A stretch of 64,000 nucleotides of DNA. Origin: an uncultured Coriobacteriaceae bacterium. GTDB taxonomy: Bacteria > Actinomycetota > Coriobacteriia > Coriobacteriales > Atopobiaceae. The notes beneath the pieces were generated by a model that was not told the DNA's origin, ran no database searches, and saw only the letters and a program-made list of their open reading frames with translations. Where the stretch lies: the NCBI GenBank assembly GCA_902779675.1, contig CACZCK010000013.1:1-64000 (forward strand), given 5' to 3'. This document shows, piece by piece, positions 584 to 13,570 of this stretch (the first letter of the stretch is position 1; every line of letters starts with the position of its first letter). A program made the position numbers and the translations under genes.

Positions 584-784
584 TTAGTCCCATTCCCAGT
601 CCATAAGGTCCATCGCGTCTGCCCCTGCGCTCCGATAATCGTCAATGACATCACGAGCACAGTCTTCGCACAGATCCTTGTCATCGATATACTCATCGTA
701 CGCGCCCGCTCCGAAGAGCTGGGCTATGCTTCTTCTGGCGGTAGACAGGTCGAACTCTTCGCCACAGTTTGAGCAAGTTGGCAT
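584..784 (-). CDS. Small zinc-ribbon protein
   Basis: A 66-residue acidic protein that starts MPTCSNCGEEFDL and carries a second CEDC pair near residue 39. The two CxxC knuckles are about 30 residues apart and should bind one zinc ion. ATG at 784 is preceded on the minus strand by GGGAGGTAGCC, a strong Shine-Dalgarno site at good spacing. It is transcribed away from the defence-like operon. The tail is rich in Asp and ends LMDWEWD. Function unknown; small zinc ribbons of this kind often act as adaptors, but nothing here shows a partner. Confidence 0.65.
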   Translation of the reverse strand: MPTCSNCGEEFDLSTARRSIAQLFGAGAYDEYIDDKDLCEDCARDVIDDYRSAGADAMDLMDWEWD

Positions 785-1033: not shown

Positions 1034-2323
1034 ATGCAGATCGGATGGATAGACTTCTCACCAGAGGAACGGAGTCGGACGCTCACGGTCCTCAGCTCAC
1101 TTTCTGAGCCCGGATCGGTCGATGAGCTTGGTGTTGGCATCGTCCGCGATGCTATGGCAGACCGGCTGTTTCCAGGTACCTCAACGCTTCTCACCAAGGC
1201 ACGTTACTTCTTTCTCGTTCCGTACCTATCGCGCTACCTAGAGCGGGGGCACGACAACTCGCGCCAAGACCCCAGAGCTCTTCGCAACGCTTTTCGCGAT
1301 CTGGAGCGGCAATGTGCCGCCGGGCTTAGGAGCTGCGCAAAGGCTAGCGGTCATTCGGACGAGGGAATCATTGGCAGGGTGGCTCTGGCGAGTGGCAAAT
1401 GGGTCACTCGAGGCCCGGGCGAGATCTACTGGGCTTCGCTTCGCACGCTCGGCTTTATGAGGCAAGGCGCTCCGGACAGCTATCAGGCGCAGTTTGCCTA
1501 TCTCTCTGACGTGCGGACACGAGACCAACAGTACCGCACCGCTCCATCCGACGGCGATGAAGGAGATGGTCTTTCGGACGACAGGCTGGCGCTTGGCAGC
1601 ATGTGGAACCTGCCAAGAGACTCGTACGATTGCTGGCGTGAAGCGTGGAAGCAGTGGGACTCAGAAGCCTCCATCGCACTTACGCGCGAGGAGGCGCTGT
1701 TCCTGCGCGATCGCGTCGTGTCATCTCGTCCCGATTCCCTGTATGCGCTCATCCTTACCGATGAACAGTTGCGCCAAATGGCGCTGGCATCCGTTTATGG
1801 CGAAGGTGGTACGCTTGGCGACTCGTCACTTCACGAGTTTCTTTTGCACGGGTTGGCGCGGATACAGAGCCTCTCACCTGAGCTGGCGCAGACGTGTGCG
1901 ATCGCCGACGCGTTCAGCGAGCTGGTTCTTGGTTGTCGCATTGCTTACAACATGCAGCTAAGTGGCCTCGAGGAGTCTGGCTCGCATGAGTGGGATGAGT
2001 TTGCGCCTCGTGTAGCCAGCGTTGCTCGCGATGTCGACCTCACAGCTGTGGGGCATGTGCTTGGCCTCAGCAGCCATCATGGTTTTCATGCCCTGCGAGC
2101 CTTTCTTCTTCGTTCGGCTGCTTGCATAGAAGCTGGAGACCTCGAAGGTCTCAAGGAGCAGGTGAGACGCCGAGAGGCAGCTATCAAGGGCGCAAGACGC
2201 AAGATCGGTGCCAAGAACGCTGGCGAGTTTGCCTGGCGCGGGGGCCATCGGCTGCCGTATCGCTTTGCCAATGCGATGGCAATCGTGCGTGAGATCGAGG
2301 AAGCGGGTGGCTGCAATGCTTGA
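1034..2323 (+). CDS. DUF6361-like protein, first gene of candidate defence operon
   Basis: A cytosolic protein of 429 residues. I chose ATG 1034 (MQIGWIDFSPEERSRTL) because AAAAGGACAAGCT lies just upstream and the alternative ATG at 962 adds residues that look non-coding. The N-terminus IGWIDFSPEE, then LSEPGSVDELGVGIVRDA and FPGTSTLLTKARYFFLVPY, matches what I remember of the uncharacterised DUF6361 family. No nuclease, helicase or membrane motif is visible. A basic helix (EQVRRREAAIKGARRKIG) near the C-terminus could contact nucleic acid. It overlaps the next gene by 8 bases, so the two are probably translationally coupled. Role inferred from context: a sensor or scaffold for the nuclease and helicase downstream. 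Confidence 0.75.
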   Translation: MQIGWIDFSPEERSRTLTVLSSLSEPGSVDELGVGIVRDAMADRLFPGTSTLLTKARYFFLVPYLSRYLERGHDNSRQDPRALRNAFRDLERQCAAGLRSCAKASGHSDEGIIGRVALASGKWVTRGPGEIYWASLRTLGFMRQGAPDSYQAQFAYLSDVRTRDQQYRTAPSDGDEGDGLSDDRLALGSMWNLPRDSYDCWREAWKQWDSEASIALTREEALFLRDRVVSSRPDSLYALILTDEQLRQMALASVYGEGGTLGDSSLHEFLLHGLARIQSLSPELAQTCAIADAFSELVLGCRIAYNMQLSGLEESGSHEWDEFAPRVASVARDVDLTAVGHVLGLSSHHGFHALRAFLLRSAACIEAGDLEGLKEQVRRREAAIKGARRKIGAKNAGEFAWRGGHRLPYRFANAMAIVREIEEAGGCNA

Positions 2324-4232
2324 GATGGATGAGGGGCGCGTCAGCTTCGCGGACGCACTGAGGCCGCCTGAGGGATACGAGCTCTCCTTTGCGGTTGGCA
2401 CTACCTATTCGCTGGACCTCAGAGCTCTGCTCGGTATTTGTATTCCTCTGGGTCTTGGGTTTGAGCCAGAGGCTCTCTACTCGGTAAATCCCATAAGCCT
2501 TTTTGCGGCGCTCAAGACACTGCAGGGCAAGCTTGTGGTGTACTGCGACAAAGGGAGCATGCGTGCGGACGTTGCCGCAAACAGCAAGACGTCAGGCCTC
2601 CTCATGCTGCTCGAGGAGATGGTCCATCAGGTCCATGTGAACCGACATCGCAAGGATGCGCTGTCTTCCTTTCATCCCAAAGTATGGGTTATCGAGTATG
2701 CCGCCCGTGACGGGGGAGCGCCGCTCTACAGGCTCATGGTGATGAGCAGAAACCTGACGTTTGACACCTCGTGGGATGTCGCTGTGTCGTTGGATGGCCA
2801 GCCAGGCGAGGGCAACAGCTGCTCCGAACACGTGGCCCAGTTCCTTGAATTTTTGGCAGGAGGAGACTCTCTGACCACAACTGAGCAAGATGACACGCGC
2901 AAACGCGGCTCGCATACGGCGCGTGTCAGGAAGCTTGCGGACGCAGTGCGTGGGGTGCAATTCAAGGTCGACAACAGAAACTTCGAGGCGGTGGAGTTTC
3001 TTCCGTTTGGCCCTCAGGGTGGTAGGCAGACCGGGCTCTTGGATGCTCGGAAATGCGATCTCCTCACGTGGCGGTGGCGGAGCATGCTTGTGGTGTCGCC
3101 GTTCCTCAGCAGTGGGGACGACTCTCCGTTGGCTGTGATGTCGCGTCACAGAAGTGGAGTTTCGGGCAGGTATGTCTTGCTGAGTAGAGAAGACTCCCTG
3201 ATGGAGCTCCCGAGTGGGATGCGTGACGCCTACGAGTGCTTCTGTCCGGCTTCGTCGCTTGCGGATGTTGAGCTCGAAGGCGATGGCGGCGTCGACGCGT
3301 CGGACTATTCCAACCTGCACGCAAAGCTGTACTTCTCGCAGGATATGGGCGGCAGGCGAAGGCTTTGGGCTGGTTCGCTCAACGCCTCCCGCAACGGCAC
3401 GTTCAACAACGTGGAAGCACTCATTGCGTTGAGCGTAAAGCCGAGCCACCTTACGTTTCATCAGATGCTGAAGCCACTCATTGGGGATGGGGGAAAGGAG
3501 CGCCCTCCCTTTGTACCGTTCGACCCGCCCAGTGTTGCAGAAAGCGTTGCGGAGGACGACCAGGAATTCAGGCGCGCCTTTCGTATTGCATCGCGTCTCG
3601 TGAGTTTCAAGGGTGTGAAGGTGCGTGGCGATGCAGGCGACGCCTCGATGGATGTCACGATCGAGGTGGGATCAGCTGTCAAGGCTTGCAAGGGCGTCTC
3701 CCTCTCGATGAAACCGCTCCTCGCGTCTGAGTACGCGCAGATAGAGATGGGGACGCGTGCCAGCAGGCAAGAGCTATCGTTCATGGGGCTTATCCCCGAA
3801 CAGGTATCAGCCTTCTTTGTTCTTCAGGGCACTGACGATGAAGGTAACACCAGGTGCTGCGTGACGGTCTGTCCGCATGACAAGTTTGATGATGCGGGGC
3901 TCTCGCTTGAAGCTAGGAGTAGCAAGGTCTTGGGCGCCATCCTCTCTCAGAACGACAGGGGGCTTTCGCAGTATCTTGCGCACGCCTTCGACCTGCCCGA
4001 GGCGGCATATGCCATCAATAGCGAAAGCCAGAGCTCTTCCAGCCCAACCACTGCCAAAAGCCTCTCTGTACCAGCAGGGTTCTACGAGCGTCTCCTTGAT
4101 ATGGCGGACACGAGCCCCGACGTGTTTGACCGTGCGACGCAGCTTTTGGAGCTCATACCAGATGACGTGCGAAACGACCAGCTCGATGAGCTTCGCGGCC
4201 TAGTAGAGACGTTTTCGAAGGCGGTGAAGTAG
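2316..4232 (+). CDS. Phospholipase-D-fold nuclease-like protein
   Basis: A 638-residue protein read from ATG 2316, which overlaps the stop of the preceding gene. It has two HxK half-sites, as a complete PLD-fold active site needs: H120PK122 followed by MVMSRNLT, and H335AK337 followed by AGSLNAS and NVEAL. The first third is a Rossmann-like region (VGTTYSLDLRALLG), the C-terminal 250 residues are unassigned. PLD-fold proteins of defence islands (for example DrmC of DISARM) act as nucleases or membrane lipases. With a SNF2 helicase one base away, a DNA nuclease is the more likely role. No signal peptide is present. The family assignment is firm; substrate is inferred. Confidence 0.82.
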   Translation: MLEMDEGRVSFADALRPPEGYELSFAVGTTYSLDLRALLGICIPLGLGFEPEALYSVNPISLFAALKTLQGKLVVYCDKGSMRADVAANSKTSGLLMLLEEMVHQVHVNRHRKDALSSFHPKVWVIEYAARDGGAPLYRLMVMSRNLTFDTSWDVAVSLDGQPGEGNSCSEHVAQFLEFLAGGDSLTTTEQDDTRKRGSHTARVRKLADAVRGVQFKVDNRNFEAVEFLPFGPQGGRQTGLLDARKCDLLTWRWRSMLVVSPFLSSGDDSPLAVMSRHRSGVSGRYVLLSREDSLMELPSGMRDAYECFCPASSLADVELEGDGGVDASDYSNLHAKLYFSQDMGGRRRLWAGSLNASRNGTFNNVEALIALSVKPSHLTFHQMLKPLIGDGGKERPPFVPFDPPSVAESVAEDDQEFRRAFRIASRLVSFKGVKVRGDAGDASMDVTIEVGSAVKACKGVSLSMKPLLASEYAQIEMGTRASRQELSFMGLIPEQVSAFFVLQGTDDEGNTRCCVTVCPHDKFDDAGLSLEARSSKVLGAILSQNDRGLSQYLAHAFDLPEAAYAINSESQSSSSPTTAKSLSVPAGFYERLLDMADTSPDVFDRATQLLELIPDDVRNDQLDELRGLVETFSKAVK

Positions 4233-4233
4233 C

Positions 4234-7200
4234 GTGGCACATGGACCAAGCGTAAGGGAGCGTCTGGAATCCATCGACAAGGCCGTGATGGGTGGCCTTA
4301 CTCCGTTTCAGCGTGCGACGGTCGAGCATATCGCAAAGTTGTACGCAGATGGGCAACAGCGCGTGCTCGTGGCCGATGAGGTCGGGTTGGGAAAGACCCT
4401 GATTGCACGTGGCGTGATTTCAAAGATTGCTCGGTTGCGCGAGGGAGAAGGAGACGACCTCGTCAAGGTTGCCTACGTGTGCTCTAACGCCTCTATCGCT
4501 GCACAGAACATCTCGAAGCTTCGTATTGACGGAGATGTCCAGCTTGCTTCTGCGGGGTCTTCGCGCCTTTCCATGCAGCACCTCAAGATCGCACGAGAAC
4601 GTGGTGACGAGGAGCTAAAGGCTCGCTACATCCAGATAACCCCGCTCACGCCTGGTACTTCGTTCTCCATTAGTTCGGGTACCGGCACTATGCACGAGCG
4701 CGCGCTCATCCTTGCGGTGCTTGCATATGACGGGCGCTTTTCAAGGGACTCGGGCCGCTACGAGCGGTTGGGCGAGCTCATGTGGGACAGAAGAAGTAAC
4801 TCCAACCCTGGCGGTTGGGGATGGTGGCGTCATTGCACAGAGGAGGATGTTTATCGGGTTCGCGAGGGAGATCCGGAGCGTGGGGAAGAAACTGGCTATC
4901 CCTATGATGTGCTCAAGAAGGTCGAGCTAGAGCTTGCAGAATCAGGCGGGCTCACTTTTGCCTCGCTCTGCGAGTATCTCGACTCTGATGAGCGGGACAG
5001 ACGTCGTGAGCGAAGGGCTATCAACGACTTGAGGCGTGCCTTTGCCAAAGTGTGCGTAGACATGCTGAACCCCGATTTTGTCATCATGGACGAGTTCCAG
5101 CGGTTCCGTAGCCTCATCGCCGACAACGACTCCGAGACGTCGATGCTTGCCAAGCGTTTCCTTGGCGGCAAGACAAGGGTCCTGTTGCTTTCGGCCACGC
5201 CGTTTCGCATGTATTCGACTGATGCGGAGCTCGACACGGGTGGGTTCGGCGACTCGTATCATGAGTTCCTCGAGGTCATGGACTTCCTTGGCGAGGGAAA
5301 GGCTGATAAGCATGAAGCGTTCCGGCAGGTTTGGGGCGACTACGCGCTTTCAATAAAGAGCCTTGGTGCCGGGACGTGCGATGTGGTGTCGGTGCGCGCA
5401 TCAAAGGATGCGGCCGAGGCTGTTGCCCGAGGCTATATGACTCGAACGGAGCGGCAGTCTACGGGCGAGCTTGGCTCGATCGTAGAGAATGAGAAGCATG
5501 TTCAGACGATTGAGATTACCCCCAACGACGTGAGGGCGATTGTCCGAATGCGCGGCCTCATGAGGGAAGCGGGCATCAGGCGTGGCCTCATGAGTGCCGA
5601 CTTTGTTAAGTCCTGTCCATTCCCCCTGTCGTTTATGTCGGGGTACAAGCTGTTCAAGGAGCTTGAAGCGAAGTCTGCCAAGAGGCCAAGCTTGATCAGT
5701 GCAAATAAGCGAGCGGACGGCGGGCTGCTCTGGCTGCGCAGATGGGATATTGCCAATTACGACCCGCTAAGTGTGCGCAATGCGCGCTACCAGGCACTTC
5801 TTAAGGACATTGCCGCAAAGGAAGACAGTGAGGATGGAGGCAAGGGAGGCGTGCGAGCCGAGCGTCTTCTCTGGATTCCCGCAAGCAGGCCGTACTATCG
5901 CCCAAGTGCCGATTCTCCGTATACCAGTACCCGTGGGTTCTCAAAGATGATTCTGTTCTCGTCGTGGGCTATGGTTCCGCCGTCGCTTTCATGCCTGCTC
6001 TCTTACGAATTCGAGCGCAGGAATGTGAAGAAGCTGAAGCGGGCAACTGGCAAGGAGTTTCGTTACTTCAAGGATGAGGACGAACGGGTGGACGAGACAA
6101 ACGACTCTCAGGCTCTGCCGCGTCGTCGCATGCGCTTCGACAAGGACCAGCACAATGCGTTTCTCCTGCTCTATCCGTCTCGGTACCTCGCCAGTTTGAT
6201 TAACGTCAAGGAGCTTGCGTCTTCTGAAGGCGCCACGTTGACAGACCTGCGAAGGTCCATGAGGCGTCGTATAGCTGAGGTCCTGCCCAAAGCGTTGGGC
6301 CTCGAGCGGTTGCCTGAGGGTGTCGATGGCCGACGCGCGTCCGTCGATTGGTACGTTGTTGCTGCCCTGAGGCTCGACGAACTGGCTGGTCATAATGTCC
6401 TCGACGAGATTCTCGGACAAGAGGGGATGCGGGGGCTTCAACTCGACAACCATTACGGGACAGAAGTTGCCGTGCTAAAGCAACTCGCCGGGATATCGGA
6501 GAGTTGGGACGCGCGTGATCTCGGACGATTCCCCGCTGACCTGGTGGATGTGCTTGCAGATGCGGCTATCGCATCACCGGCGGTATGCGCTCTGAGGATG
6601 TACGGGGCATACACCGAGCATGTGCCCGCATGGATGGCGTTCCAGTTTGGCCATGCCTTCGTAAAGCGCATGAACACCTCTTCGGCTACGCTCACCGTGG
6701 CAGCCGTGATGGAGCACAGGGATGAGGCCTCGTCTCATTGGAAGAACCTGCTTGACTATTCCTGTGAGGGCAACTTGCAGGCGGTCCTGGACGAGTACGC
6801 CTACCTGCAGAGACCAGTTGGAGTGAGCCTTGACGAGCGGGAGACAGTGCTGCGGATGCACAAAGCGATGGTGGGGCCAGGCGATGAACCCGACCTTCGA
6901 AATGTTGAAGCTGTGCATGGCGTGCGCGTGCCCACATCCGCAGGAACCAAGAAGCGAATCGACAGCATGAGGATGCGGACCAACATCGCAGAGGCATTTA
7001 TGGATGCGAAGTCTCGGGCTACAAGCGATGCGGTCGTATCCCGGGCAAACCTCAGAGAGGCGTTCAACTCGCCGTTTAGACCTTTTGTGCTGGTGAGTAC
7101 CTCTGTTGGCCAGGAGGGTCTCGACTTTCATAGCTACTGCCGCAAGGTGTGTCACTGGAATCTTCCCTCCAACCCTATAGACCTCGAGCAGCGCGAGGGG

Positions 7201-7641
7201 AGGGTGAACCGCTACCAGGGGCTTTCCGTGCGCCAGAGCATTGCAGGTCGTTACGGCAAGATGAGGTTCGATGGCAAGCCGGGCAGCGGGTCAGTCTGGC
7301 AGCAGATGTTTGAAGCTGCGGAACTTGAGGAGCACAAGCGCGAGAATGGCGATCTGGATTCTGGATTGCTCCCAAACTGGGGAGTGACTGATGGGGATGG
7401 ATTGGTGCCAGTTGAGCGCTATGTGTACCTCTATCCCTTCAGCCGAGACGTGGCGCAGTACAAGTCGCTTATTGACCAAGTCTATCACTATCGCATGGTG
7501 ATTGGTCAGCCGGATCAGGAGGAGACGCTACGCCTGCTCCATGAGCGTGTGGAGGACGGCACGCTGAGCGAGGATGAGCTCGGTGATCTATACATCAACC
7601 TGTGTCCGTTTGTGCAGAAATCGGAACAGGTGCGTGATTAA
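4234..7641 (+). CDS. SNF2-type DEAD/DEAH-box helicase
   Basis: A superfamily-2 ATPase of 1,135 residues. It begins at GTG 4234, one base after the stop of the PLD gene. Motifs in order: Walker A DEVGLGKT with K54, Walker B variant D286EFQ, motif III S320ATPF, and motif V-VI as STSVGQEGLDF then QREGRVNR (986-993). The DEFQ box and the GLDF/QREGR signature are those of SNF2/RapA-like DNA translocases used in DISARM and related defence systems. A long insertion of about 450 residues (roughly 450-900) separates the two RecA lobes. It probably moves along or remodels DNA to present it to the PLD protein. Rare and AT-ending codons are more common here than in the housekeeping genes, which suggests transfer. 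Confidence 0.9.
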   Translation: MAHGPSVRERLESIDKAVMGGLTPFQRATVEHIAKLYADGQQRVLVADEVGLGKTLIARGVISKIARLREGEGDDLVKVAYVCSNASIAAQNISKLRIDGDVQLASAGSSRLSMQHLKIARERGDEELKARYIQITPLTPGTSFSISSGTGTMHERALILAVLAYDGRFSRDSGRYERLGELMWDRRSNSNPGGWGWWRHCTEEDVYRVREGDPERGEETGYPYDVLKKVELELAESGGLTFASLCEYLDSDERDRRRERRAINDLRRAFAKVCVDMLNPDFVIMDEFQRFRSLIADNDSETSMLAKRFLGGKTRVLLLSATPFRMYSTDAELDTGGFGDSYHEFLEVMDFLGEGKADKHEAFRQVWGDYALSIKSLGAGTCDVVSVRASKDAAEAVARGYMTRTERQSTGELGSIVENEKHVQTIEITPNDVRAIVRMRGLMREAGIRRGLMSADFVKSCPFPLSFMSGYKLFKELEAKSAKRPSLISANKRADGGLLWLRRWDIANYDPLSVRNARYQALLKDIAAKEDSEDGGKGGVRAERLLWIPASRPYYRPSADSPYTSTRGFSKMILFSSWAMVPPSLSCLLSYEFERRNVKKLKRATGKEFRYFKDEDERVDETNDSQALPRRRMRFDKDQHNAFLLLYPSRYLASLINVKELASSEGATLTDLRRSMRRRIAEVLPKALGLERLPEGVDGRRASVDWYVVAALRLDELAGHNVLDEILGQEGMRGLQLDNHYGTEVAVLKQLAGISESWDARDLGRFPADLVDVLADAAIASPAVCALRMYGAYTEHVPAWMAFQFGHAFVKRMNTSSATLTVAAVMEHRDEASSHWKNLLDYSCEGNLQAVLDEYAYLQRPVGVSLDERETVLRMHKAMVGPGDEPDLRNVEAVHGVRVPTSAGTKKRIDSMRMRTNIAEAFMDAKSRATSDAVVSRANLREAFNSPFRPFVLVSTSVGQEGLDFHSYCRKVCHWNLPSNPIDLEQREGRVNRYQGLSVRQSIAGRYGKMRFDGKPGSGSVWQQMFEAAELEEHKRENGDLDSGLLPNWGVTDGDGLVPVERYVYLYPFSRDVAQYKSLIDQVYHYRMVIGQPDQEETLRLLHERVEDGTLSEDELGDLYINLCPFVQKSEQVRD

Positions 7642-7664
7642 GTTGGTGCGAGAGAGGGTCTGCC

Positions 7665-9245
7665 ATGCAAGACCGCTACGCGGGTGACATCGGGGACTAT
7701 GGCAAGTTTGCCCTGTTGAGGACCCTTGCTGCGAAGGGGCTCTCGATTGGCGTCAACTGGTATCTGGTCGAGACGCCGCCTCAGGAGCTCGCGGTCAACG
7801 ATGGCGGGAAGCTGATACCCAACGGGCTGGCTGCATGTGACCCCGAGCTTGCCGAGGTGCTGCGGGGCATTTCCCGTAGACCAGAGCGTTCTGTGCGCTC
7901 GCTCGAGAAGGCGTGCCTCGTGCCGGGCGCGCGCTATTTCGCCTATGTTGTGCCCGTCGACGGCCGTGCTGCCTGGCATGACCGGGCCCTTTCCGCACTT
8001 GCCGGAGCTGACCTGGTCTTTCTCGACCCAGACAACGGCTTGCTCGTAAAGTCAGTGGGGAAGGGCTCTGCCAAGAGCCCCAAGTACGCCTTCTACGAGG
8101 AGGTAGCCGACTATATTGCCCGGGGCCAGAGCGTGGTGGTGTACAACCATCGCAGCCGCAAGAAAGCCGACGTCTACTTTGGCGAGATCTGTGAGAGACT
8201 GAGGGCTGTCGTGTCGCAGGGGAGCGCAATTGCCGCTATCACGTTCCCCAAGGGCTCCGTGCGTGACTACTTTGCTGTTTGCGCAGGTGACGAGCATGCA
8301 AGCCTCGTGCGCGAGGTGTTCGAGGAAATGGCCGGTGGCGTGTGGGGCGATGCGGGCATGTGCAAGCTGCCGCAACTGCCGGCTCGTAACGTCTCCGTGG
8401 TACGTGAGAAGGGGAAGACCACCACGACTGTTCATACCGGCGCCCCTGCTCCAACCCAACTCGGCTTCTGGCGTGAGACCGAGCCGCTGGGCTTCTGTAG
8501 TAACTGGCATCCTACGGGCTTCGACTTCCGCGGGACGCACTTTGCCACGGGCGAGCACTGGATGATGTGGCAGAAGGCGTGCCTAATGGGCGATGCTGGT
8601 AAGGCCGCCCAGATTCTCTCCGCGCCAACCCCGCGCAAGGCCAAGGAGCTCGGGGGAGAGGTCAAGCCCTACGACGGCGCGCTTTGGGATGCCGTGCGCG
8701 AACAGCTTGTCTATTACGGCGTGCGAGAGAAGTTCCTGGCCAACGATCTGGAGCGCAACCTGCTGCTCTCCACGGGCTCGGCGCTGCTGGCCGAGGCGTC
8801 GCCCTACGACAAAGTCTGGGGCGTGGGCATGACGGCCGATGATCCGCGGTTTGCCAACCCCGCCAAGTGGGAGGGTCAGAACCTACTGGGTCGCGTGTGC
8901 ATGCGCGTGCGCGCCGAAATCCGCCAGCTCTGCGCGCTTGGGTGCCTGGACGAGGCACGTGCGGGAGGTTCCGAGCTGGACGACGCGATTGCACGGATGA
9001 CGCTCTTGCAGCTCTCGCGTGTGCCCGCGGCCAGAGCTGCGGTTTACTGCTATGCGACGATTGCGAGCCGTGCGGCTCCGAAAGCTTATCCCACACCTGG
9101 TGCGTTCCTCAAGAAGGAGCACGACGCGACCGTGGAGGGCATCACCAAGGCGCTGGAGGCTGGTAAGGGTGGCAAGCTGCCCATAACCGGCTGGTACGAG
9201 CTCGTCCGCGAGCTGTGCATCCAGCAGGCCTTGGGGAGGCTGTAG
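7665..9245 (+). CDS. Fusion protein: uncharacterised N-terminal domain plus NADAR domain
   Basis: A three-part protein of 526 residues, 23 bases after the helicase gene, with GAGAGAGGG before ATG 7665. Residues 1-235 match a stand-alone bacterial family that begins QDRYAGDIGDYGKFALLR and has the signature FLD121PDNGL; its function is not known to me. Residues 274-415 are a NADAR (YbiA-like) domain: FCSNWHPTGFDF, the conserved GE297HW, YDKVWGVG and GQNLLGR. NADAR enzymes act on N-glycosidic bonds, and some reverse ADP-ribosylation of guanine bases. The last 110 residues are helical and unassigned. In this operon it may protect host DNA, remove a nucleotide mark or cleave a signal nucleotide; all three are inference. 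Confidence 0.82.
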   Translation: MQDRYAGDIGDYGKFALLRTLAAKGLSIGVNWYLVETPPQELAVNDGGKLIPNGLAACDPELAEVLRGISRRPERSVRSLEKACLVPGARYFAYVVPVDGRAAWHDRALSALAGADLVFLDPDNGLLVKSVGKGSAKSPKYAFYEEVADYIARGQSVVVYNHRSRKKADVYFGEICERLRAVVSQGSAIAAITFPKGSVRDYFAVCAGDEHASLVREVFEEMAGGVWGDAGMCKLPQLPARNVSVVREKGKTTTTVHTGAPAPTQLGFWRETEPLGFCSNWHPTGFDFRGTHFATGEHWMMWQKACLMGDAGKAAQILSAPTPRKAKELGGEVKPYDGALWDAVREQLVYYGVREKFLANDLERNLLLSTGSALLAEASPYDKVWGVGMTADDPRFANPAKWEGQNLLGRVCMRVRAEIRQLCALGCLDEARAGGSELDDAIARMTLLQLSRVPAARAAVYCYATIASRAAPKAYPTPGAFLKKEHDATVEGITKALEAGKGGKLPITGWYELVRELCIQQALGRL

Positions 9246-9299
9246 GTTGGTCTACGTTGGGTATTTCGACCACTCGCAGGTGAGGAGCTGTCTGTACAC

Positions 9300-10058
9300 A
9301 TGAGCCTGCTCAACCTTCTGCGCGGCGAGGAGCCGGGCTACTTCAAGAACATCTCCGTGCAGTGGCGCGAGGGCACGGGCGGTCTGGGGGAGTACTTGAC
9401 CGAGTACGCCCTTGAGCACGGTGACCTGCCCGGCCGCAGGGCGGTGTTCCGCAACGTGCTGGTGCCCCGCAGCTCTGGCCCCACGAGCGAGTCCGAGGTC
9501 GACGTGCTCATGGTCCACGAGACTGGCGTCTACGTGATGGAGTCCAAGAACTACGCGGGCTGGATCTTCGGCGACGCCGAGCAGCGGCAGTGGACGCAGA
9601 CGCTGGAGCGCGGGCACAAGAACCGCTTCTACAACCCCATCATCCAGAACCGCGCGCATGTGAAGGCGCTCGCGGCGTGCCTGGGGCTGCCAGAGGACGC
9701 GTTTCGGTCCTACATTGTGTTCTCGGAGCGCTGCGAGCTTCGCAAGGTGCCGGCGAGCACGGAGGCATACGCGATCTGCCAGCGCCAGCACCTGCTCAAG
9801 GTGCTGCGCAAGGACATCGCCGGGCGTGAGCGCCGCTTCTCCGACGAGGAGTTCGACGCTCTGGCGGCCAAGGTCGGTCAGCTGGTCGCAGCCTCCACCG
9901 ACGAGGCGAAGGCCGAGCACGTGGAGCAGGCTCAGCGTGTGAAGGCCGGCGAGGTCTGCCCCAGGTGCGGCGGAGAGCTGGTCCGCCGCAAGGGCAAGTA
10001 CGGCGAGTTCCTGGGTTGCACAAACTACCCGCGGTGTAGGTTTACGAGGAATGCGTGA
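9300..10058 (+). CDS. NERD-domain nuclease-like protein with topoisomerase-type zinc finger
   Basis: A 252-residue protein. The N-terminal 180 residues are a NERD domain, a member of the restriction-endonuclease fold, with the catalytic pattern D68 ... E81-x-K83 in [20 protein letters not shown]. The C-terminus holds a four-cysteine zinc finger of the type-I-topoisomerase tail kind: C220PRC223 ... C240TNYPRC246. This pairing is widespread and is expected to bind and cut DNA. It lies 54 bases after the NADAR fusion gene on the same strand, so it may be the last gene of the candidate defence operon or an independent neighbour. The only upstream purine-rich site (GTGAGGAG) is further than ideal from ATG 9300. 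Confidence 0.85.
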
Positions 10059-10263: not shown

Positions 10264-10719
10264 ATGAGCGAGTATGAACAGGCAACTCTCGCAAAGAACC
10301 AGCGACTGACTATCATCATCAGGTTGATAGCAACTGTAGCCTTTGTTTCTTTGGCACTGATCTCATTCGCTAAACTCTCCGATCGGTTCTCATCTCCAGA
10401 AGCTTATTCTCACGAAATCGAGCAGCTTGACAAAAGAAAAGAAACCGCAGCTACTCTGTCAGTTGTCGCGGCAGCGGCTTCTGCTGGCGTTACAATCATT
10501 CCCGATGATGTCTGCACGCCGATTGCACAACAATTAGCCGAAATCAGCAAGGATCTTGGTATCGTAACGGGTGCGGTGATCTTGGAGAAATACGCGATGA
10601 CCATCTTGGGCTTTGCAGTGTTTCGCTTTATCCTGCCACTGACGATGTTGGTGCTCGCTGTGTGTGCCATAGCACCAGATTCTTCTTCCACTTTTTGGCG
10701 CCGTGCGGTGCTGCTGTAG
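10264..10719 (+). pseudogene. Membrane protein, N-terminal part of a frameshifted gene
   Basis: The frame from ATG 10264 (GAGGGGGAACAA upstream) gives 151 residues: a first membrane helix (TIIIRLIATVAFVSLALISF), a charged stretch, an alanine-rich segment and a second helix (LGFAVFRFILPLTMLVLAV). It resembles the front of a coriobacterial inner-membrane family that continues with a further helix and a long loop. That continuation is found here in the minus-one frame from about base 10690. One extra T in the run at 10692-10696 would join both parts into one protein of about 329 residues. I therefore treat this and the next entry as one gene, broken by mutation or sequencing error. Confidence 0.6.
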
Positions 10720-11252
10720 TTAGAGTGCTTCTGGCTTCACTGATTATCTGGTATTCGGTGCCGCTTGGAGTCAGGGCATCAGATATGATTTTTGATACCT
10801 ACGAAGAGACAATTAACAACGCTATTGAAAACGCTAAGCTTGCGGAGGAGCTGACGAAGCAAAAGGATGAGGCGAGCAGGAGTTCGGATGCTGCTTCGGA
10901 TAGGAAACTCGAGTTCTCTATTGATGGCTTTGTCGACGCGCTGGCATCCATTCCCTCGGCAATTGCCAACGTAGCTGGTTCGGTCGCTTCCTCTGCCAGC
11001 GATAAGGTCTCTGTCTTGGTGGGGTGGGCGAAGGTTGTCCTTACTCAGATTACAGAGGGCTTTGCGGTTCTGGTTGTGACAACCTGCATCATTCCTCTGC
11101 TTGTGCCTTTGTTGATGTTCTGGCTCGCTAAGCTCTTGCTTCAGCCGTCATCTGCGTCGCTTCCTTCGCTCCCGCAATTTGCCAGCGTTTCGCTCCTTCC
11201 CTCTGCAGATCAGAATTCCCTTGGGTCACCAGTTCGCAATCGGAAGAAATAG
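10662..11252 (+). pseudogene. Membrane protein, C-terminal part of a frameshifted gene
   Basis: This frame supplies the second half of the gene that begins at 10264. True homologous sequence seems to start near 10690 (FLAPCGAAVVRVLLASLIIW); the residues before it are out of frame. It has a membrane helix, then a loop with a short coiled coil (NAIENAKLAEELTKQKDEA), an Ala/Ser-rich segment and a last strong membrane helix (AVLVVTTCIIPLLVPLLMFW). No convincing ribosome binding site precedes ATG 10662, which argues against an independent gene. Function unknown. Confidence 0.55.
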
Positions 11253-12127: not shown

Positions 12128-13570
12128 CTAGCTGACGCTCTTTAGAACGGCCTCTGCCTCAGAAATATCCGTCTTCGTGTACTCCCAGTCGAAGCCACTT
12201 GAATCGGTCAGAATCAGTATCGAGTCGTCTCCTGACCTCTTGAACTTGAGATGCTCTTGGAAGCCATCGTCGACATAATCGACCGTGAGGCCGTTATCAA
12301 GATCGCCCGAGCAAGGCAATACCATAGAGCCTGAATCGTTTGTGCCAAAGTACGTTACCGTCTTGTCGTCAAGGTCGATTAGGTAGTAGAGATCGTAGTT
12401 GGACATACTTCTTATGTAGGCATACTCGTACTTCGAGGTAGCTTTGGGCTTGCTCCCCGCGTTGGTGTTCGTCTTTGTGCTTGTCTCCGCCTGCTTGCTT
12501 GTTTTCTTCTGTGTGGCCGCGTCCTTCTTCGTGGTCTCTGCTTCCTTGTCTGCCTCGACCCCCTTTTCAGCTTCAGCCTTCTTCGCAACCTCAGCCTCGT
12601 CAGCTGTTAGAGCATTGATGATGGATGCCTCAAGCTTCTGCTGTTGAGAATCACTCAGATACCTTGAGGTGCGAATCACATACTCGCCGTTTGTCGTGTG
12701 CGAGCCAGCTAGGCTAAGGAAGCTGCCTGCGGAGCCTAGGTATTCGTCACGTGCCTGGGCGTCCTTCTCATTGCGGAACACCTCTACGCAACCACCGCCG
12801 TCAGTGCCCCTATCGATGACGTCGTCACCCTTCACCTTCTCCTCGACCAGATCTGACGAGAAGAACACTGCCGCGATGTAGCTGTCGTCCTTGCTGAGGC
12901 CCTTATTTGGATCGTGGTCTTTGGTTGCAGCTGTCGGCTCTTGGATATGCTCAACTCCCGTAAGACGGCCGATGACGAATTCTGCTGCCTGACTGCCTGC
13001 ATCCTCGGAGTCTCTTGCATCCGACTTGTTATCGTCGCTGGTCTCCGCCGAATCCGATTTGTCATCTTCGGCTATCGTTTGGCTCGCCTCTATCTCTGAG
13101 CCTGCCCCCTCAGCACTGGCATCAGACTTGTCCTTGCCGGAAGACGCGCCCATACCGATGTAGATAATCCAAGCTATGACGATGATGCCTATGCGGACCT
13201 TCTCATCCAGCTTCTTGTTGCGCATCATCAAGATCGTTAGGGGTATTGGGAAGATGAATATCCAGCCAAGAACCCATAACCACGTCTTGCGCTTCTTCTT
13301 TGGCCGCCCTTGTTGTTCGGGTATTTGCATAGGCTGCGATGGTATCTGATAGGGTTGCTGGGTTGAGCTCTGGGCGAACTCTGCCTGCGCTCTCTGACGA
13401 CCCTTCTCAAATTCATAGCCTGCTTGCTCAGCATTGTCGTAGCGTATATGCTGCGCTTCATCATCAATGGGAAACGTTGTCCCGCAGAACTGACACGAAG
13501 CCTGTCCCTTTTCAATATCCACGTTCAGTTGTGCTCCGCACGCCGGACATGTGAATGCGACCAACTTCAT
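12128..13570 (-). CDS. Zinc-ribbon membrane protein
   Basis: A 480-residue protein. It opens with a zinc ribbon (CPACG ... CQFCG, residues 9-33), then a Gln/Pro-rich linker, a basic patch PKKKRKTW and two membrane helices (near residues 97-120 and 128-145). A long low-complexity stretch rich in Asp, Ser, Glu and Ala follows, then an outside domain that starts FVIGRLTGVEHIQEP. A second low-complexity Lys/Thr/Ala run (near 355-395) leads to a C-terminal beta-rich domain. Proteins with this layout are common in Coriobacteriia and unstudied. The low-complexity parts suggest a spacer through the cell wall. Confidence 0.75.
   Translation of the reverse strand: MKLVAFTCPACGAQLNVDIEKGQASCQFCGTTFPIDDEAQHIRYDNAEQAGYEFEKGRQRAQAEFAQSSTQQPYQIPSQPMQIPEQQGRPKKKRKTWLWVLGWIFIFPIPLTILMMRNKKLDEKVRIGIIVIAWIIYIGMGASSGKDKSDASAEGAGSEIEASQTIAEDDKSDSAETSDDNKSDARDSEDAGSQAAEFVIGRLTGVEHIQEPTAATKDHDPNKGLSKDDSYIAAVFFSSDLVEEKVKGDDVIDRGTDGGGCVEVFRNEKDAQARDEYLGSAGSFLSLAGSHTTNGEYVIRTSRYLSDSQQQKLEASIINALTADEAEVAKKAEAEKGVEADKEAETTKKDAATQKKTSKQAETSTKTNTNAGSKPKATSKYEYAYIRSMSNYDLYYLIDLDDKTVTYFGTNDSGSMVLPCSGDLDNGLTVDYVDDGFQEHLKFKRSGDDSILILTDSSGFDWEYTKTDISEAEAVLKSVS

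Follow-up and report, generated by a model that had tools for sequence, protein, structure and literature searches.

A candidate Azaca variant with a NADAR fusion gene, and ADP-ribose removers beside its ZacA group

Introduction

What kind of system is encoded by a row of genes that opens with a DUF6361 gene and ends with a NADAR-bearing protein and a NERD nuclease? The question is raised by five genes on the + strand of a 64,000-nucleotide stretch (here called the window) of contig CACZCK010000013.1, from the gut-type genome of an uncultured Coriobacteriaceae bacterium (assembly GCA_902779675.1). An earlier note had taken them for an anti-phage defence operon, and the operon does look like one; its core is a known system, Azaca. 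The best explanation of the locus, to which we give a probability of about 0.5, is that it is an Azaca variant of a distinct ZacA group carrying an accessory arm that erases ADP-ribose. Within this reading, we infer co-transcription, the substrates, and a service of the eraser to Azaca that goes beyond sharing an island.

Results

The Azaca core

Judged by their profile matches, the first three genes are Azaca (ZacA-ZacB-ZacC), an anti-phage system reportedly first described by Millman et al. in 2022. The core was given this name because the PADLOC profiles of ZacA, ZacB and ZacC were matched near full-length, and the three genes are adjacent, on one strand and in the order A-B-C. The features of the operon are listed here by window position (aa, amino acids).

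1034 to 2323, + strand: zacA (DUF6361), 429 aa; PADLOC ZacA 5e-76, profile positions 4-393 of 396; Pfam DUF6361 1.5e-25
2316 to 4232, + strand: zacB, phospholipase D (PLD)-like, HxK at 120 and 335, 638 aa; PADLOC ZacB 9.8e-108, profile positions 1-581 of 586
4234 to 7641, + strand: zacC, SF2/SNF2-type helicase, 1135 aa; PADLOC ZacC 1.1e-262, profile positions 6-1017 of 1019
7665 to 9245, + strand: gene 4, fusion of a predicted RlmJ-fold domain and NADAR, 526 aa; full-fusion relatives in L105, L106 and L107, 70-72% identity
7665 to 8384, + strand: gene 4 N-domain, residues 1-240; RlmJ-like predicted fold, pLDDT (predicted local distance difference test) 93.7; without a family match
8466 to 8924, + strand: NADAR domain, gene 4 residues 268-420; Pfam NADAR 1.9e-42; E297, K304, E377, D382, W385
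8925 to 9242, + strand: gene 4 C-terminal extension, common to Coriobacterial NADAR proteins; matches reach residues 520-526
9300 to 10058, + strand: gene 5, NERD nuclease with a topoisomerase-type C4 zinc ribbon, 252 aa; NERD 5.8e-26, Zn_ribbon_Top1 2.5e-16, phrog_21557 4e-35

The coordinates of the five open reading frames (ORFs) bear out the one-strand array described earlier, with successive overlaps or gaps of -8, 1, 23 and 54 bases. The gaps on either side of gene 4 are free of listed terminator-like sites in a consensus scan. The view upstream is cut off because the window starts at base 1 of its 67,663-base contig.

The earlier note knew of no named system that joins a DUF6361 head to a NADAR-bearing tail; for the head, this is contradicted by the PADLOC matches and by several plasmid Azaca loci that are annotated as DUF6361, phospholipase D and helicase side by side. 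A match to an already named system, which that note had set beforehand as speaking against its proposal, is what PADLOC returned for genes 1-3. Its motif readings stood better. Both HxK half-sites of ZacB (H120xK122 and H335xK337) are present and invariant in 21 of 21 aligned ZacB proteins, Pfam giving PLDc_2 at 0.0056, under its cut-off. The SNF2 motif set of ZacC is likewise present: DEAD and Helicase_C are both over the Pfam cut-off, and K54, D286EFQ, S320ATP and Q986REGR..R993 are invariant in all nine aligned ZacC proteins; V991, N992 and F324 are not.

Azaca is rare in the sampled genomes. In the class, 6 of 296 genomes, counting that of the window, encode a nearly full-length ZacB. ZacA was found in 8 of the 396 genomes drawn from the phylum (again counting that of the window; two of the eight are fragments) and in 5/391, 2/180 (centre genome included) and 4/189 of further draws. 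Among 72,556 plasmid records, 49 match ZacC (tblastn, 1e-20), 26 of them covering at least 80% of it; regions were fetched for 15 of the 49. Compared with the well-covered plasmid forms, ZacC of the window's group shows about 29-33% identity. No Azaca was found in viral contigs, either with the window ZacC as query or with ZacC and ZacA alignments.

DISARM was rejected as an identity for the operon because neither DrmB (DUF1998) nor a methyltransferase was matched by any of the five proteins at E 0.05, as the earlier note had also held. The likeness lies in a PLD protein together with an SNF2-type helicase; DrmD matches ZacC, locally only, at 3e-13 (among the best 25 of 27 PADLOC families for ZacC), and no other operon protein has a Drm match in PADLOC.

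Some further features of Azaca loci were observed. On Rhizobial plasmids the system is preceded by a PD-(D/E)XK nuclease and UvrD helicase gene (L243, L246, L247, L255, L258), and the same arrangement is given by an older annotation for L257, of which L258 is a near copy. Broken-looking genes occur: zacB of L247 is annotated as two ORFs, and zacA of L266 is in pieces. The zacC frame of L275 (7999-12231, minus strand) has 1410 residues, about 275 more than that of the window. Directly upstream of the window's zacA lies a 66-aa ORF with two CxxC pairs (585-784, minus strand), relatives of which were not found in the 35 other Azaca loci at 1e-4.

ADP-ribose removers beside the window's ZacA group

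These 35 other Azaca loci were scanned for neighbours; flank sizes vary, and several are very short. The ZacA tree holds 34 proteins, with a midpoint root for drawing only, and omits L198 and L199 (a piece of zacA only), L258 and L266; L267 was fetched and is not Azaca. A branch with 100/100 support and length 1.4 sets off 13 of the 34 rows, including the window, and every locus in which a co-oriented ADP-ribosylglycohydrolase (ARH), Macro or NADAR gene was seen falls within this group. ADP-ribose removers are repeated neighbours of the window's ZacA group. Their arrangements differ: zacABC - Macro - vWA-like in L089; vWA-like - ARH - zacA, with a 4-base gap, in L259 and its near copy L260; TPR - unknown - N-domain - DnaJ-like - HIRAN - zacABC - ARH, all on one strand, in L275; and WYL - HIRAN - unknown - ARH remnant - zacABC in L274 (the vWA and DnaJ matches are under Pfam cut-offs). 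Two more members of the group have other companions: L262 reads WYL - SseB - zacABC, without an ADP-ribose enzyme, and in L263 a Nudix gene precedes zacA at a distance of 28 bases.

No eraser was seen in the remaining 21 rows apart from a DarT-DarG pair in L194, and none was present in loci from related hosts on that side of the tree (L085 and L277), which are few. The ARH beside zacA is the sole ARH of genome G692 and one of two in G663, and G1237 has no match other than the remnant; the chance of an ARH falling within 1 kb of a zac operon is about 0.004-0.006 in each case. G692 had been sampled beforehand through its N-domain locus L156, and the near-identical twin locus L260 was supplied by a new draw.

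When all loci are counted, with L259 and L260 merged, erasers occur in 5 of 11 loci of the group against 0 of 17 others (Fisher P 0.005; P 0.02 with L194 counted against). L279, L086, L195, L196 and L278, with little or one-sided flank, were left out of these counts; L259/L260, also one-sided, entered as one positive, and taking L195, L196 and L278 as negatives would only sharpen the contrast. The pattern itself had led to the window and L275, and without these two the count is 3/9 against 0/17 (P 0.03). Over the variants of this count (P 0.03-0.11), support without the pattern-found loci is modest, and a host range in common, that of gut anaerobes, may explain part of the association.

Two observations stand apart from these counts. 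The DarT-DarG pair of the actinobacterial locus L194 (14775-16487) consists of DarT (6e-60) and a DarG-like Macro protein, 16 bases past zacC and on the opposite strand. A weak NADAR match in the Phaeobacter locus L244 (3e-4) was dropped, as it was not recovered at 1e-4.

Gene 4: the NADAR module

Gene 4 is, by its domain matches and predicted fold, a previously unnamed fusion of an RlmJ-fold domain and a NADAR domain, and such a fusion was not reported in the literature searched. Its probable activity is the removal of ADP-ribose tags carried by DNA or RNA. The C-terminal 270 residues comprise the NADAR domain, which had been named earlier and is confirmed by Pfam, and the extension. By motif spacing, not alignment, the residues with which characterised NADARs contact or cleave ADP-ribose are mostly kept: the key residues E43, K50 and E125 of the P. 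nicotianae enzyme have counterparts in E297, K304 and E377. Placed in the same way, its residues D130, W133, Y84, W89 and R93 correspond to D382, W385, Y336, W341 and R345, and R79 and D86 are not retained. NADAR proteins are known to remove ADP-ribose from guanine in DNA or RNA, according to the available text of PMC11543638.

The extension is matched to residues 520-526 in G230, G246, G239, G287 and others. In other Coriobacterial genomes the module of NADAR and extension is fused to ADP_ribosyl_GH (L092, L093, L096) or Macro (L093), and NADAR without the extension is fused to SseB in L102 and L103. As a side observation, in L092, L093, L096 and L094, all Coriobacterial, NADAR is fused to or lies beside ARH and Macro domains, and a 1023-aa protein of L093 bears all three together. 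One of the three complete fusions outside the window, L106:730-3519, has 398 extra in-frame N-terminal residues with no Pfam match, which may belong to a true fusion or to an upstream frame that happens to be open.

Gene 4: the N-domain

Searches of Pfam, PADLOC, NCBIfam and PHROGs gave no hit on residues 1-240 of gene 4. Relatives were found in 201 stretches of genome_contigs, 80 of which were kept as N-domain loci for analysis, and in 13 loci of viral contigs; none was found in phage records. Outside the three fusions most relatives lie in a short open frame, and the domain is for this reason taken to be mostly stand-alone; seven are in frames of 374-495 residues. A second copy, apparently stand-alone, is present in the window's own genome (G000:C18:47063-47797, L071).

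The AlphaFold model (pLDDT 93.7, predicted TM-score 0.90) suggests that the N-domain has the RlmJ variant of the Rossmann fold. Foldseek ranks 2oo3, an RlmJ homologue, first (E 3.5e-5, TM-score 0.43), and the nine top VIA entries are all RlmJ (Z 9.5-10.5), followed by unrelated spermidine synthases at 8.5; the top RlmJ superposition has Z 10.5 and a root mean square deviation of 4.3 over 208 residues. No similarity to the E. coli RlmJ profile was found (hhalign probability 0.2%), and no solved structure was matched by sequence. The claim is restricted to the predicted fold because of these unsupportive sequence and profile comparisons.

RlmJ is the 23S rRNA m6A2030 methyltransferase, in which K18 and D164 are essential (PMC3814359, in the text available). 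D11, K14, D121, P122, D123 and N124 are invariant in all 57 N-domain sequences, in which DPDN replaces the DPPY of motif IV; a GxG in the motif I region is present in 7 of the 57. By eye, AG[ND]xxDxxK places D11/K14 at RlmJ D15/K18, and D121-P122 at D164-P165; nothing stands for Y4/H6. The N-domain is like RlmJ in its predicted fold but differs in these motifs, in lacking profile similarity and in a TM-score of only 0.43. It may bind nucleic acid or carry out another catalysis, and methylation is not claimed.

Neighbourhood of the N-domain

The N-domain is independently linked to ADP-ribose chemistry through its Macro neighbours. Of the 80 loci, 6 have a Macro gene entirely inside 5 kb of it, where 0.43 would be expected (P 6e-6); the expectation is drawn from 100 Macro genes in 144 Mb of 50 host genomes and from 613 kb of flank of all 80 loci, the 50 of 80 genomes having been picked by the analyst and including all Macro-positive ones. 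These loci are L108, L133, L143, L148, L163 and L184; the Macro gene of L162 starts 4.9 kb away, extends beyond 5 kb and was excluded. Spacing is tight in three, with a 4-base overlap in L148 and 13 and 19 bases in L108 and L143. ARH genes are near the N-domain in L108, L122, L133, L144, L147 and L184, and vWA-like genes in L122, L143 and L148; the viral contigs L200 and L201 show the same company. Taking genome and viral loci together, 18 of 93 carry any marker, a figure that counts the three fusions, the zac genes of L116, the distant ARH of L132, the distant Macro of L162 and a zinc-ribbon match in L153. The commonest neighbour cluster is an ABC-transporter ATPase (7 of 76 loci, mixed strands; Macro and ARH six each), which was taken as generic.

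Gene 5

The NERD D-ExK site that had been claimed for gene 5 was found as D68...E82-K84, and the zinc ribbon is an addition to that call. Matches to gene 5 occur in 57 of 197 genomes of the class, mostly via the zinc ribbon; besides the own genome, eight match over most of the protein. In L233, L235, L238, L239 and L240, the five of eight fetched loci that could be checked (three gave no gene table), the flanking three genes to either side include none with a zac, NADAR, Macro or ARH marker.

Base composition

The GC content is 57-59% in the zac genes, 63.6% in gene 4 and 66.4% in gene 5, and that of third codon positions (GC3) is 0.62-0.68 in the three zac genes and 0.76 and 0.90 in genes 4 and 5. 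The earlier note had read a codon use different from that of housekeeping genes; a compositional shift holds for the zac genes only, and the overall codon distance is unremarkable for all five, inside the range of 30 other window ORFs, some of which are probably wrong frames.

Downstream of the operon, a gene for a Zn-ribbon protein (12128-13570) has counterparts near the gene 4 fusion in L105 (76% over 126 residues) and L107 (68% over 336 residues), and two ORFs within 10264-11252 both match a single L105 gene.

Discussion

In the reading preferred here, ZacC as helicase and ZacB as PLD-type phosphodiesterase would, with ZacA, recognise and cut invading DNA. Gene 4 would bind nucleic acid through its RlmJ-fold domain, and its NADAR domain would remove ADP-ribose from guanine in DNA or RNA; this erasure would undo marks set by an ADP-ribosyltransferase of a phage or a rival, leaving host and defence machinery functional. 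The NERD protein would be an extra nuclease. The earlier idea that the NADAR protein serves self-protection or signal control is unproven, and gains indirect support from the repeated presence of ADP-ribose removers beside members of one ZacA group, that of the window.

Several points weigh against an Azaca variant with its own erasing arm. The NADAR module of gene 4 and the full gene 5 were not seen in any of the 35 other Azaca loci scanned (several with short flanks), where only parts were met (the N-domain alone in L275, a zinc-ribbon match alone in L277), and no Azaca was seen in the fetched stretches of the L105-L107 fusions. Within the ZacA group, L087, L088, L261 and L264 have no eraser, and L279 is almost flankless; L087 is the closest relative (zacA 78% identical) and shows none in the 647 bases visible past zacC. 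With the window and L275 omitted, the association falls to 2/9 (P 0.11) when the L274 remnant is uncounted, and to 3/9 against 1/17 (P 0.10) when the DarT-DarG pair of L194 is counted. Repeated association is argued from the five changes of the label on the tree (seven rows, L262 included); four of these are forced, and a number as low as this was reached in 23 of 500 shuffles. The tree also carries warnings of long branches (L263 and L264 among them) and odd composition (L259, L260 and L274 among them). Finally, the gap in composition between the zac genes and genes 4-5 suggests separate histories or arrivals.

This last point is also the first in favour of an explanation that is nearly as likely, namely that Azaca and genes 4-5 are separate modules stacked at a defence-island hotspot, gene 4 being a stand-alone anti-ADP-ribosylation protein. 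The full fusions seen without Azaca also speak for it, and that of L105 lies 12 bases behind a protein matching the PADLOC candidate defence protein PDC-S30; the Zn-ribbon gene downstream is common to L105 and L107 with a different upstream module, and some plasmid Azaca loci adjoin restriction or toxin genes instead. Against mere stacking, differently composed erasers recur inside one ZacA group, one pair 4 bases apart, and the 23-base gap between zacC and gene 4 is free of any listed terminator-like site.

It is improbable that the operon is a toxin-antitoxin system, in which an ADP-ribosyltransferase of its own, for example ZacA, would modify DNA or proteins on infection with NADAR as antitoxin or signal eraser. 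NADARs are antitoxins of DarT1, and YbiA-like proteins of YarT, in the available text of PMC11125620 and PMC11543638; gene 4 has the same E/K/E set, and no function was found for ZacA. However, no DarT or other ADP-ribosyltransferase family was matched in the five proteins (Pfam, E 0.05), the NADAR is fused to an RlmJ-fold domain and an extension, and ZacA loci with no visible eraser exist, which ought then to be toxic. The ZacA model, made from a two-row alignment (pLDDT 36.9), is too poor to judge by and was not used. Less probable still is that the gene 4 NADAR is a YbiA-like riboflavin-intermediate N-glycosidase outside defence: the model TIGR02464 ('riboflavin biosynthesis intermediates N-glycosidase') passes its cut-off with 1.4e-42, and the anti-phage NADAR model NF053876, at 6e-10, stays far under its own, but relatives fuse the same module to ARH and Macro domains, and the fused N-domain adjoins Macro or ARH genes elsewhere.

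Compared with Azaca as known, the window has all three genes in order, with near full-length profiles and conserved HxK and helicase motifs, but adds the fusion gene and the NERD gene. A second comparison is with the ARG-centric systems (PMC9503650), predicted host systems against viral ADP-ribosylation in which, in the text available, ARH is combined with Macro or NADAR, vWA or SseB chaperones, WYL or Nudix regulators and nuclease or helicase effectors. The window is like these in that its ADP-ribose remover adjoins nuclease and helicase genes. Genes of the vWA-like, SseB, WYL and Nudix kinds are found in its sister loci only. It differs in that its five genes include NADAR but not ARH, which is beside the zac genes in L259, L260, L275 and, as a remnant, L274. 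In such systems the window's Azaca group would take the part of the effectors; PLD, phospholipase, SNF2, methyltransferase and RlmJ were not found in the available main text of that paper.

In the literature searched, where most subscription journals, figures and supplements were outside the scope, DUF6361 was not found, and neither were papers joining any two of Azaca, DUF6361 and ADP-ribosylglycohydrolase. No mechanism for Azaca was found there, the available passages merely listing it, and RlmJ was not found in NADAR or ADP-ribosyl literature among the matches listed. The Azaca core is already known; for the link of the ZacA group to erasers, and for the fusion of an RlmJ fold with NADAR, no published description was found there.

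A wider proposal, which we regard as tentative and rather unlikely as a whole, is that one Azaca branch has a two-armed immunity, with a helicase-nuclease arm directed at phage DNA and an interchangeable eraser arm (ARH, Macro or NADAR fusion) protecting the cell or the nuclease arm from ADP-ribosyltransferases that the phage injects or makes, and that the RlmJ-fold DPDN family is new as well, either an enzyme acting on ADP-ribosylated nucleic acid or a reader of it. As for the Azaca variant with an erasing arm, if it is true, the steady partnership with ADP-ribose removers would be a first handle on the threat that this Azaca branch faces, namely phages that ADP-ribosylate host targets. It would also bring into view a conserved, unnamed family with a predicted RlmJ fold, here fused to NADAR, whose ties to ADP-ribose chemistry span several bacterial families.

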